From: Pirellulales bacterium | Lineage (GTDB): Bacteria; Planctomycetota; Planctomycetia; Pirellulales; UBA1268 | Direction: 5' to 3' | NCBI GenBank assembly: GCA_016776925.1 | Contig: JADHSL010000002.1 | Location: 1-64,000 of the forward strand | Length of the DNA: 64,000 bases | In this document: positions 4,893 to 9,496 of the stretch, in pieces | How the letters are laid out: every line of letters starts with the position of its first letter | Position numbering within the stretch: position 1 is the stretch's first letter | Position numbers and translations under genes: made by a program | Notes under the pieces: generated by a model | What the model was told of the DNA's origin: nothing | Databases searched by the model: none | What the model saw: only the letters and a program-made list of their open reading frames with translations

Positions 4893-4909
4893 ATGGGTAT
4901 CGATCCCAT
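4893..4909. terminator. Palindrome filling the recQ/livG-like gap
   Basis: The whole 17-base gap between the two convergent stop codons is the palindrome ATGGGTATCGATCCCAT: a 5-bp stem with a 7-nt loop that itself contains the self-complementary ATCGAT. It may act as a bidirectional terminator, but neither side has a U-tract. Confidence 0.3.
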
Positions 4910-6154
4910 CTAGTGCGGTGAAAGATGCACTGTACGATCACAGATCAGCGCAACCGGATCGTTTCCTGCCGAGGTCACGACAAGCGTCAACACTCCTTTA
5001 CAGACGTCCTTCAGGATGCCTGCAAGCGCATGCTGCTGCTGAGTGTTCATACCGTCCGCTGGTTCGTCAATGAGAAGAATCCGAGGATCCATAGCCAGAC
5101 CGCGAGCAATTCCCAAACAACGTTGCTCGTAACGTGTCAGATCTGAAGCAAACGAGAATGATTGATCGATCAGTCCCACTGACCGAATGAGTTCTTCGGT
5201 CCGCTCAATACAGTTCGCTTTATTAACATGTGGCCACCATGCTGAAGATTTTCGATAAATACCTTGCTCTACCGTAACAAGTATATTTTCAAACACTGTC
5301 ATCGCAGGAAAGTTTCTGGGAGATCGAAAGGTGCGGGCCACTCCAGCTCGAGCAGCAACCTCTGGCGAACGTCTCCCTCGCTGCCAGATTGCCAGCGACA
5401 TTCCAACTCCAAGAAATAAACCACAAATAAAAGCAGACCAACCACGAAAACGAATTCGACGTTTCCCGGCTGCCAACCGGTCAAGAGTCGTTTCATCCAA
5501 TAGTAGCTCGCGTTGCGGTTCATTCGCATCGCCCACTAAATCAGTTATGTCGGGAACAACACCCGGACCAGTTCGCCGAGCAGTCACTGCTGCTTGCATT
5601 TGATTTCGTAACTCTCGGGCTTCGGAAAGATCGCGACGTACCGCAAGAACTTCACGTCCATCTGCTGTGACAATGCGCCAATTACCGGCCAGTCGGTCAA
5701 TAGCCAACTCCGCGCGAAAATAACTACGAAGTCGTCTCCCGAAGTTTGCGGGCGTAAATGGCTCGTCGACTACAAGACCCCGCTTTACAACAGCCAGCCA
5801 CAATCGATCGATATCTACCGCTGCTGCCGCACATAACAAACCAACAAGAATTCCTGTAAACAGAACACCCCAGAATGTTTTCGCAGAGAACCCCTGCTTC
5901 AATCGACGTCCATCCAATCGGACTGAACCGGAAGATGCTGACCGTAGCCCACAGATAGCATCGAGAAGAGCAGCTTTCGACCCTCTTCCCGAATCTATAA
6001 TGGCAACGCTACTACCTGCTGACACATCGAGCTCTAGTTCATCGATGAGTGGAATCCCACCTGATTGAACCGTAAGTCGATCAATACTCAGAAGCGGAAT
6101 ATCTGGTGAGAGCACCGCACCCTCGCTCACTTTTGTATTTTCTCGATGAGTCAT
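4910..6154 (-). CDS. LivG-like ABC protein with degenerate ATPase motifs and a membrane insert
   Basis: Last gene of a Liv-type (branched-chain amino acid/urea/amide) ABC transporter operon; its ATG overlaps the livM stop (ATGA) and has an AGGAG site. The 414-residue product is a LivG homologue split by an insert. Residues 20-87 match the start of the nucleotide-binding domain, and 263-414 resume at GVARTFRSPRNFPAMTVFEN, which lines up with the LivG Q-loop region. Between them lie about 175 extra residues: a membrane segment (about 93-115), about 120 mostly polar residues, and a second membrane segment (about 238-257). Motifs are damaged. Walker A reads DSGRGSKAALL (Lys kept, glycines and Ser/Thr lost), the Q-loop Gln is Arg, the signature reads LTRYEQ where LivG has LxYGxQ, and the switch His is absent (VVTSAGND). 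Only Walker B (RILLIDEPADGMN) is intact. I infer a pseudo-ATPase; transport may need an ATPase encoded elsewhere. Confidence 0.8.
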   Translation of the reverse strand: MTHRENTKVSEGAVLSPDIPLLSIDRLTVQSGGIPLIDELELDVSAGSSVAIIDSGRGSKAALLDAICGLRSASSGSVRLDGRRLKQGFSAKTFWGVLFTGILVGLLCAAAAVDIDRLWLAVVKRGLVVDEPFTPANFGRRLRSYFRAELAIDRLAGNWRIVTADGREVLAVRRDLSEARELRNQMQAAVTARRTGPGVVPDITDLVGDANEPQRELLLDETTLDRLAAGKRRIRFRGWSAFICGLFLGVGMSLAIWQRGRRSPEVAARAGVARTFRSPRNFPAMTVFENILVTVEQGIYRKSSAWWPHVNKANCIERTEELIRSVGLIDQSFSFASDLTRYEQRCLGIARGLAMDPRILLIDEPADGMNTQQQHALAGILKDVCKGVLTLVVTSAGNDPVALICDRTVHLSPH

Positions 6155-7233
6155 TGCTTTGACTCCTGGAATTCAGCAGCAAAACGTCGTGATGGAATAA
6201 GTCCTATGGGACGAAATCGCATCACAACGATTAACGCTATGCCTACAAGGGCTAATCGCCAACTTCCAAGCGTAAAGAGGCTGACATCAAATACCTGCCC
6301 CTGAATGCGTTGCATCCAGGAATCGACCGACGGAATCACAACGATGTCAAAACCAAACAAGATTGTGACTCCGACAAGTGTTCCTGGGATACTACCAAGG
6401 CCACCTATTATGACGGCGCAAAGAATCGCAACTGAGCGATTAAAGCCAAAAGCATTTGGATCTCCGGTAGTACCGATACTTGCAACAGACAGGCAGCCGG
6501 CAAGTCCGGCTATCGCTGCAGCTATTGTGAAAGCCGAAAGCCGAACTTTCGTTGCAGAAATACCTATTGTCGCTGCAGCAAGTGGCTCCTCGCGAACAGC
6601 AATCCAGGCCCTACCAAGTGCCGATTTTTCAAGAACCCGTACAAGCAGCACCACAACAAAGAGCGCAATGAGCGATAAGTAGTAGAACCAACGTGAATCA
6701 ACAACGAACTCTCTGCCGAGATCTATCCCCGTAACAAATATTCCAGATCCTGGTGGCGGAATCGGACCAAGCCCCTGTGTACCACCTGTTACGTTTTCAA
6801 GATTCAGAAATAAAACACGAACGACTTCACCAAAACCAAGAGTAACAATAGCAAGGTACTCACCTCGAAGACGCAACGTTGGTGAGCCGAGTAACGTTCC
6901 TATTGCGGCAGTCAGACCAACACTGACAAAAACTGCCGGGAGAAAGCCTATCTCCAAGGGATTCATTGGAACGGTGAGGATTGCAAGAAAGAGACCGCCT
7001 AAGCCAAAAAATGATGCAATTCCCAGGTGGAGAAATCCCGTGAAGCCAACCATGACGTTGAGACCAAGAGCCGCTATGCAGATTATTAAGACTGATGTCA
7101 TCTGTCCGCCCAGCCCCCCGGCCAATGCCGGGTAGAACCATGGCGCAAGGGCTAGCATTGTGAAAACTGGTATCTCCCAGTTTTTCTTGGACCACTTCAC
7201 GAAATGAGATAAGGAGGGCCATTGAATTTTCAT
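6151..7233 (-). CDS. livM: Liv-type ABC transporter permease LivM
   Basis: Inner-membrane permease subunit, 360 residues from MKIQWPSLSH. It carries the LivM hallmarks ALGLNVMVGFTGFLHLG near the first segments and LRLRGEYLAIVTLGFGEV, GGTQGLGPIP and GGLGSIPGTLVG further on, with about nine to ten hydrophobic segments. The start at 7233 overlaps the livH stop as ATGA and has a strong ribosome-binding site (GAGGAGG), so the longer frame reaching 7329 is not needed. It pairs with LivH as the transmembrane channel; the substrate is probably a branched-chain amino acid, amide or urea-like compound, and the sequence alone does not decide. Translationally coupled to livH and to the livG-like gene. 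Confidence 0.9.
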   Translation of the reverse strand: MKIQWPSLSHFVKWSKKNWEIPVFTMLALAPWFYPALAGGLGGQMTSVLIICIAALGLNVMVGFTGFLHLGIASFFGLGGLFLAILTVPMNPLEIGFLPAVFVSVGLTAAIGTLLGSPTLRLRGEYLAIVTLGFGEVVRVLFLNLENVTGGTQGLGPIPPPGSGIFVTGIDLGREFVVDSRWFYYLSLIALFVVVLLVRVLEKSALGRAWIAVREEPLAAATIGISATKVRLSAFTIAAAIAGLAGCLSVASIGTTGDPNAFGFNRSVAILCAVIIGGLGSIPGTLVGVTILFGFDIVVIPSVDSWMQRIQGQVFDVSLFTLGSWRLALVGIALIVVMRFRPIGLIPSRRFAAEFQESKQ

Positions 7234-8147
7234 CGCTGTCCTCCTCGTGTTTTTGATTTCCCAAAGATCCCTTGCGGGCGAAACGCAAGAAAAATAATGA
7301 GCACAAGAAAGACCGACGCGATAGCCCAACGAGGGCCAAGAAAGGCCACCGAAATGGCACGAATTAATCCGACTATAAGTCCACCAACTATTGCACCAGG
7401 CACGCTCCCAATACCACCAAGCACTGCTGCAGTAAGAGCATACAAACCCATCTGATGCCCCATCTGATAGTTAATCGTCGTTGCATGAACCCCTGCGGCT
7501 ACACTCGCAACACCACCGAGAAAGCCACTTAGAAAAAATGTTGCGATAACAAGTTTCCCTGCTTCCCCTGAACGAGCTGTCACACGGGTGATTGCAGCAA
7601 TGGAACGCAACGATCTTCCAAAACGAGTTTGACGAAGAAGAACGTAAAGGCAAAGAACGGCTGGCACGACGATGACAAGCACCAGAAGATCAGCCATCGC
7701 AATGGAAAATCCACCAACTGAACGTGTGGTTTCCAGGAAAATCTCAGGAAATGCACGATCAGTCGGACCGATCCAAATAAGACCCACATTCATGAGTACA
7801 AACGAAACACCGATTGTTGAAACGAGGGGAGATAGAGGAGGAGCATTTCGCAGCGGACGATAGACAAACTGATCAATACAAATATTCAGACAGCCACAAA
7901 ACAGTCCACTACACGCAGCAGCTAAAACTACTACTAGACAACCAGTCAGCGGGTCGACCGGAACTGGCACAAGGAATGACAAGATCGCAAGTGACAGGCA
8001 GCCACCAAGCATGACTACATCCCCATGGGCGAAGTGGATGAGCCCAACGGTTCCGTACACCAACGTATATCCAACAGCAATCAGCCCCAGAAATCCACCA
8101 CTTGTGATTCCGATACCACATTGCTGAAGAAAGGATGCTACGTCCAC
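7230..8147 (-). CDS. livH: Liv-type ABC transporter permease LivH
   Basis: Inner-membrane permease, 305 residues with about eight hydrophobic segments. Family motifs include GITSGGFLGLIAVGYTLVYG at the N-terminus, LIHFAHGDVVMLGG, YRPLRNAPPLSPLVSTIG and the C-terminal TAAVLGGIGSVPGAIVGG, which is the cytoplasmic coupling region of LivH/LivM permeases. The start is GTG at 8147; no in-frame ATG lies near and no Shine-Dalgarno site is visible. It sits 49 bases after livK and overlaps livM by four bases, so the permeases are co-translated. Confidence 0.92.
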   Translation of the reverse strand: MDVASFLQQCGIGITSGGFLGLIAVGYTLVYGTVGLIHFAHGDVVMLGGCLSLAILSFLVPVPVDPLTGCLVVVLAAACSGLFCGCLNICIDQFVYRPLRNAPPLSPLVSTIGVSFVLMNVGLIWIGPTDRAFPEIFLETTRSVGGFSIAMADLLVLVIVVPAVLCLYVLLRQTRFGRSLRSIAAITRVTARSGEAGKLVIATFFLSGFLGGVASVAAGVHATTINYQMGHQMGLYALTAAVLGGIGSVPGAIVGGLIVGLIRAISVAFLGPRWAIASVFLVLIIFLAFRPQGIFGKSKTRGGQR

Positions 8148-8196: not shown

Positions 8197-9462
8197 TTAT
8201 CTGCTGCCGTTCTTTTTGCCTATGCCAGCAGTTGACATGACTTCCTCATGCACAAACTCACCACCCCGAACAACACTCACAGACACCTCCTGAAGTGTCG
8301 TATCCCCATTTGCATCAATACCCCATTGGCCAAGCACACCATCGTCTACCTGGCTTGCAAAAGCCGATTCTACAATAGCTCGACGATCTTTCACCCCAAC
8401 ATCAGCAATAGCTCGAATCACGAGCCTCGCCGCCTCATAACCATGAATGGCTGCGTTGCTTGGGCATGTCCCATATTTTTGCCGATAGCGAAGAAACAAC
8501 AATTTTTCGTTGCAATCTGCCTGCTCTGGTGACAACCCTGCAGATGTGGCAAAACACCGACCCTCAAGAGAAGCCGCGCCTGCTGCTTCAAGGAATGCTT
8601 TGGTGCGACATCCATCCGAAACCAACAGGATTGCCTCGCTCTCAGCTGACACAAGATCACGTGCGAGTTGTCCACCTTTGGTTCGTGCACTACCACCAAA
8701 GTAGATAAGGTCTGGATCAGCACTCATAACGGACCCTACAAACGATTTAAACTCCGCTGCCTGTGGATCAATCGAGACGTGCTCAAGAACTGCCATGCCT
8801 TGCTCACGACACCGATCAGCGAACAAAGAGGCCACACCTCGCCCGTAAACACCAGCATCATCAATGACGAAAACTCGACGCACTCCACGCTCGAATGCCC
8901 AATCTGCAGCAAGTGGACCTTGAAGGTCATCGGCCGGGACAACTCGGATATAATTTAATTTGCCAGACGGCCGATAAACGTTTGGCTCTCCAGGAAGACC
9001 AAGTCCTGGCTTGGTCAATCCAACGGCAGTATTCGCTGGAGATACCATCAGCAAATCCGCATAGTTGAGAATCGGCATTGATACTCGGGCTGCTCCAGAG
9101 TTCAAGGTACCTATATACGCCATTACGTTGGGATCCTGCACAGCCATCCGAGCATTGGCTGCCTCGCCCTCACTCGTCCACCGGCCAGACGCTGCTGCAC
9201 TGTTATCAAGATCACGATATTCCAGAGTAAACCGCCCTGCTTTTTCCTTCACCTCATCAATTGCAAGCCGAATGCCTCGAACAACCTCATCACTTACCTG
9301 TCTGGAGACACCTGTACGCGGCAGGCTCGAAACGAGACACACCCGATTGGATTCTATTTTTTGACAACCGCAAGCATTCAGTCCAATCGTTAGGCAAACT
9401 ACGACACTCCATGCCAGCCTAAACGGTGGTGGATTCTGCGGACAAAACCAATTACTTCTCAT
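8197..9462 (-). CDS. livK: Liv-type periplasmic substrate-binding lipoprotein
   Basis: Ligand-binding component (type I periplasmic binding protein fold, leucine/amide-binding family) for the downstream permeases. The 421-residue product starts MRSNWFCPQN, has one hydrophobic segment and a lipobox (LNAC), so it is probably a lipoprotein. Recognisable pieces are PRTGVSRQVSDEVVRGIRLA, AYIGTLNSGAARVSMPILNY, RVFVIDDAGVYGRG and IHGYEAARLVIRAI. ATG at 9462 has a GAGG site; a frame extension to 9489 adds only nine residues. First of four liv genes, 34 bases after rlmKL. The ligand cannot be assigned from sequence. Confidence 0.88.
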   Translation of the reverse strand: MRSNWFCPQNPPPFRLAWSVVVCLTIGLNACGCQKIESNRVCLVSSLPRTGVSRQVSDEVVRGIRLAIDEVKEKAGRFTLEYRDLDNSAAASGRWTSEGEAANARMAVQDPNVMAYIGTLNSGAARVSMPILNYADLLMVSPANTAVGLTKPGLGLPGEPNVYRPSGKLNYIRVVPADDLQGPLAADWAFERGVRRVFVIDDAGVYGRGVASLFADRCREQGMAVLEHVSIDPQAAEFKSFVGSVMSADPDLIYFGGSARTKGGQLARDLVSAESEAILLVSDGCRTKAFLEAAGAASLEGRCFATSAGLSPEQADCNEKLLFLRYRQKYGTCPSNAAIHGYEAARLVIRAIADVGVKDRRAIVESAFASQVDDGVLGQWGIDANGDTTLQEVSVSVVRGGEFVHEEVMSTAGIGKKNGSR

Positions 9463-9496
9463 GATTTCGCCTCTTCGTGCAGTCACCAAAAAACTC

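Follow-up and report, generated by a model that had tools for sequence, protein, structure and literature searches.

A Liv-type importer operon in the 64,000-nucleotide stretch of Pirellulales DNA analysed here (the window) most probably has a dead ATPase subunit and no LivF and is nonetheless still selected for, a reading to which we give a probability of about 0.85. The co-directional gene set runs from rlmKL through a LivK-like substrate-binding lipoprotein (8197-9489, minus strand, assigned by Peripla_BP_6), a LivH-type permease (7230-8147, minus strand, assigned from the ORF and profile matches), and a LivM-type permease (6151-7329, minus strand, start codon uncertain, the ORF overlapping LivH) to a LivG-like ORF of 414 aa (4910-6154, minus strand), whose ATG overlaps the livM stop (ATGA). 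This K-H-M-G order is that of LivKHMGF/Urt importers, and both permeases and the LivK-type binding protein of such systems are present. LivKHMGF systems also encode two ATPase subunits with K, H, and M, but livF is missing here: recQ, which is convergent with the LivG-like gene, ends 17 bp from its ORF, and this gap (4893-4909) occupies the place where sister genera have livF. The neighbours of the operon are rlmKL, carB, recQ, a PAP2-domain gene, and aroB. LivK keeps the binding-protein motifs NSG, SPAxT, VYGxG, and KGGQLA, and its cleft motifs are like those of amino-acid binding proteins, except that it has a Lys (in KGGQLA), as do intact relatives, at the position of a Glu in 4n0q, the closest solved amino-acid binding protein. 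Because of this Glu-to-Lys replacement, branched-chain amino acids should not be assumed to be the substrate, which may differ from a plain amino acid.

The LivG homologue retains an ABC fold and has lost the residues that make it an ATPase. Pfam ABC_tran matches it in two pieces around an insert (E 2.9e-11), its best NCBIfam matches are UrtD and LivG, both far under their cut-offs, and its AF2 model (mean pLDDT 78) aligns with solved ABC ATPases from the PDB at a TMt of up to 0.82 (Foldseek). Alignment with intact relatives locates the remnants of the motifs, all on the minus strand: a Walker A of DSGRGSKAA instead of GPNGAGKTT (5969-5995), which keeps the Lys and departs from the GxxGxGK[ST] of active LivG/UrtD; a Q-loop of RTFRS instead of RTFQN (5321-5335); a signature of LTRYEQ instead of LPYGDQ (5123-5140), in which Gly has become Tyr; and an H-loop of TSAGN instead of IEHHM (4961-4975), without the switch His. 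The C-terminal VIEAYLG tail of the aligned relatives is absent as well. These comparisons bear out an initial annotation that had described a LivG-like ORF with two hydrophobic segments around an insert and the loss of Walker A (apart from its Lys), the Q-loop Gln (to Arg), the signature Gly (to Tyr), and the switch His. Its statement that Walker B remains holds for the window (ILLIDEP, 5060-5080, minus strand) but not genus-wide, with Asp replaced by Ala in L081 and the catalytic Glu by Asp in G009.

All full-length LivG copies from the window's genus (group code g1) are without Walker A, the Q-loop Gln, the signature Gly, the His, and the C-terminal tail, and Walker A loss is also seen in G004, where only the N-terminal part is readable; this recurrence rules out assembly error as the source. 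No stops or frameshifts were found in the copies from the genus, and in no full-length copy has the cytoplasmic domain been truncated away. The earlier proposal of a membrane-anchored pseudo-ATPase under selection, as opposed to a frameshift or simple decay, is supported, the protein having been kept with its losses throughout the genus. The motif loss is restricted to this genus plus one transitional relative, L090.

The absence of livF extends to the whole genus. Orthologous LivF proteins are 55-77% identical among intact relatives, while the best LivF match in g1 genomes is an LptB-like protein of about 35% identity with intact motifs. We rejected these 35% matches as a backup LivF, since they are LptB-like and have homologues in relatives with a real LivF. 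The livF site has shrunk to 17-43 bp in eight of nine g1 genomes, and no livF remnant was found in the single long gap (348 bp, G006). Genome searches found no second LivF or LivG in g1, the only complete LivG-type matches being the copies at this locus; as these genomes are MAGs, with a completeness of 92.9% for that of the window, an ATPase could lie in a missing piece. No LivFG-type ATP site can be assembled from the genes found. With LivF gone from operon and genomes, and only the LptB-like protein left as a close relative, the earlier suggestion that the degenerate LivG is a structural partner for a separate ATPase is weakened.

The two permeases differ in what has become of their coupling helices. 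The LivH sequence GKAMRAVSQDxTAAALVGVD of intact relatives is rewritten in all g1 genomes: alignment places the erased helix at 7554-7619 (minus strand, GRSLRSIAAITRVTARSGEAGK), where the window reads GRSLRSIAAITRVTARSGEA. The LivM coupling helix, GRAWIAVREEPLAAATIGISATK (6547-6615, minus strand, by alignment), is kept, with REDELAASAMGIS retained and the window reading REEPLAAATIGIS. In general terms, the LivH motif QDxxAAxLxGID is lost in all g1 genomes and the LivM motif REDxLAAxxxGIS is kept, leaving a coupling helix in one permease rather than in both, as LivKHMGF systems have. L090, which still has LivF, also still has the LivH coupling motif. Since the LivH coupling helix was lost asymmetrically, LivH-LivF and LivM-LivG pairs are suggested, and the simplest reading of this co-variation is that LivF docked on LivH and that LivG docks on LivM, where the degenerate LivG would still be docked. 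A sequence search for a solved LivHM homologue found none. Apparent LivM-LivG gene fusions, considered as support for the pairing, were artefacts of an out-of-frame stretch (L035/L112, G019) and of masked N (L040/L113, G018). Three findings go beyond the initial annotation, and the explanation proposed below rests on them: livF is gone, the LivH coupling helix is erased, and constraint is reversed.

The insert that splits the degenerate LivG lies between Walker A and the Q-loop and consists, by hydrophobicity and AF2, of a first TM segment (residues 94-113, AF2 helix 91-112; 5816-5875), a loop domain of about 125 aa (residues 114-238; 5441-5815), and a second TM segment (residues 239-257, AF2 helix 221-260; 5384-5440), all on the minus strand. 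AF2 models it as TM1, two helices, three strands, a helix, a disordered linker, and a long helix (221-260) that includes TM2. The two-TM geometry makes the loop probably extracytoplasmic; positive charge borders TM2 on both sides and does not settle the loop's side. Fold searches against solved structures and a Pfam search gave no significant match to the insert, whose loop domain is modelled at a pLDDT of only 63.

Within the genus, the insert evolves at a dN/dS of 0.03-0.09, within or below the range of LivK, LivH, LivM, and recQ (0.03-0.16), in contrast with 0.10-0.37 for the nucleotide-binding domain (NBD); these NG86 estimates are rough, with dS above 1. The dN ratios, which are independent of dS, point the same way: the ratio of NBD to insert is 0.30-1.15 in intact pairs, mostly 0.3-0.5, compared with 2.4-3.0 in g1. 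The NBD is thus usually better preserved than the insert in intact pairs and the relation is reversed in g1, where the insert is now more strongly conserved than any other part of LivG, under constraint equal to that on LivK, LivH, and LivM.

For these observations, we favour a de-energised ABC importer, although we put the specific version below at slightly less than an even chance. The ancestor would have been a high-affinity K-H-M-G-F importer of the LivKHMGF/Urt type that lost its use of ATP: livF went, and LivG lost the residues that bind ATP, make the signature contact across the dimer, and carry out hydrolysis. Strong purifying selection persists on LivK, LivH, LivM, and the LivG insert. 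The degenerate LivG would keep its fold and its place on LivM in a structural role, with its two helices beside the permease holding the conserved loop domain in the periplasm near LivK and LivHM. The resulting K-H-M-G complex would bind ligand and need no ATP to run, most likely acting as a facilitator or channel-like permease to which LivK delivers the ligand. We prefer facilitated uptake to sensing by elimination, and this is the least certain step. Solitary BtuM and BioY offer a precedent for transport after loss of the ABC/ECF module: both transport in E. coli when no ECF module is present (PMC6072759). There, too, an uptake system of the ABC class has outlived its ATPases, but BtuM and BioY are single small membrane proteins, whereas here a whole binding-protein-dependent permease is kept together with a dead ATPase subunit.

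A rather unlikely alternative is that the complex is a ligand receptor, with LivK-HM binding ligand and signalling through the LivG loop domain or the cytoplasmic shell without transport. Constraint on LivK, LivH, LivM, and the insert but not on the motor would fit a receptor, as would the folded cytoplasmic domain retained in full-length copies of LivG. That shell, however, would be the natural output face and is the least conserved part of the protein, and none of the operon's neighbours encodes a kinase, a response regulator, or another signalling protein.

We regard it as improbable that LivHM is driven by a foreign ABC ATPase from another locus, with the degenerate LivG as an adaptor. MsiK-type shared ATPases serve sugar importers, the genomes hold dozens of other ABC ATPases, and the altered LivH cytoplasmic loop has a pattern of its own conserved in the genus, GRSLRS[IV]AA[IV]xR, that could be a new docking surface. 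Against this, no LivF/LivG-type ATPase is left except the LptB-like one, the LivH coupling motif was destroyed without being exchanged for a recognisable one, and the LivG half-sites are dead in every full-length copy.

Slow decay of a relic, in which the ATPases go first and K, H, M, and the insert follow, seems a similarly poor prospect: the relaxed NBD, the lost livF, the drifting Walker B (L081, G009), and the lack of the whole system in several other genomes of the family would suit it, but the genus copies are uninterrupted, the low dN/dS of K, H, M, and the insert is held over dS > 1 with within-genus constraint as strong as that on recQ, and decay of the NBD would not be expected to make the insert the best-preserved part. 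With the intact sister G017 as the reference, the distances that separate the window clade from other genera have risen 2.1-2.5x for recQ/rlmKL, 1.6x for the insert, 3.2x for LivK, 3.4x for LivM, 5.8x for LivH, and 3.7x and 7.3x for the two NBD halves (7.3x for NBD-C). Within the clade, the distance for LivH is 0.123 versus 0.154 for recQ. LivH thus appears to have changed much on the genus stem and to be constrained now like housekeeping genes, which looks like refitting rather than decay.

The de-energised importer would differ from known systems in several respects. The degenerate LivG shares gene order, ABC fold, and sequence affinity with LivG/UrtD of LivKHMGF and UrtABCDE (HAAT) systems but has dead Walker A, Q-loop, signature, and H-loop motifs, a two-TM insert with a ~125 aa loop, and no LivF partner. 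In SUR1 and CFTR, too, ABC architecture with degenerate ATP site(s) has been turned to a use beyond pumping, as a regulator or a channel. Both, however, are eukaryotic single polypeptides with an exporter fold, and they continue to bind ATP, whereas the present case concerns a bacterial importer that cannot assemble an ATP site of its own. MacB and FtsX-type ABC systems carry a periplasmic domain between TM helices of the permease, whereas here the domain interrupts the ATPase fold itself. In the literature searched, no published description of a hairpin LivG or of an ATPase-less Liv system was found.

The hairpin is far more widespread than the motif loss. Relatives from the same family (G010-G022 plus about 50 further loci) and from other families of the order combine the insert with unbroken ATPase motifs and usually with a livF alongside. 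Since the insert sits in intact, livF-associated LivG ATPases, its gain and the motif loss are separate events and the insert is ancestral; the initial annotation had the homologue gaining its insert together with the loss, which does not stand. An insert profile search was positive in 72 of the 297 sampled genomes of the order and gave recognisable matches in 2/391 other sampled genomes of the phylum. Using LivG from one of those two as the query revealed a hairpin with a shorter loop in several further families (L167-L179, from G546, G649, G589, G470, G527, G426, G505, G606, G299, G307, G321, G483, and G574), with a Walker A to Q-loop spacing of 114-128 residues versus 38-43 in ordinary LivG, a class aligned partly by eye in which the second hydrophobic stretch falls under a simple threshold in some members. 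Its first hydrophobic stretch is followed by a conserved LW, often with PFPW. When 84,980 genomes were scanned with a pattern, all loci recovered were consistent with planctomycetes, although this one scan barely probes outside Planctomycetota. The short-loop proteins show that the architecture extends beyond the order, and the hairpin seems to be an old trait of Planctomycetota whose payload varies. Several records with this operon name Candidatus Kuenenia stuttgartiensis, Planctomicrobium piriforme, or Pseudomonadales in their titles, and these names look wrong for the bins. In L179 (G574:C639), about 364 residues separate Walker A from the Q-loop; by eye, this loop holds about five W-x-V-x(4)-G-x-x-V-L-x(6)-E-A-x(3)-L units, for which BLAST backs only single weak matches, and one such unit is present in the insert of the window.

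The ATPase subunits of importers are usually taken to be soluble motors in the cytoplasm, yet many planctomycete LivG proteins appear to be integral to the membrane, with a domain on its far side. Tentatively, at rather less than even odds, we propose that Planctomycetota have a class of integral-membrane importer ATPases, a hairpin LivG with a variable extracytoplasmic payload, which in one genus abandoned ATP and permanently became a structural part of a binding-protein-dependent permease or receptor that needs no ATP. This lineage, with an intermediate still alive, shows an ABC importer losing both motors while binding protein, permeases, and insert stay selected; it makes testable whether a binding-protein-dependent ABC permease can function with no supply of ATP and how permeases and ATPases are paired within the Liv/Urt family.

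The intermediate is L090 (JAQBZA010000207.1), whose LivG has an intact Walker A (GPDGAGKTT) and has lost the signature (LSLAG) and H-loop (VTGDS), and whose LivF (5174-5863 of that contig) is present but lacks its C-terminus and has a disrupted signature (LSAAEQQ). The contig's coverage is listed as 0.05 and the bin's contamination as 4%. L090, whose genome has the same group code (g9) as the intact G017, forms one clade with G017 and g1 (SH-aLRT 99), within which the permease tree leaves a three-way split unresolved (support of 47 for L090 with g1; L090 with G017 not rejected, p-AU 0.41). L090 and all g1 genomes have in common three derived residues, S to T in the insert, I to P after the Q-loop, and I to T at the H-loop. 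Because of these residues, an independent loss in L090 is disfavoured even with the tree unresolved, and we favour L090 as a transitional sister of g1.
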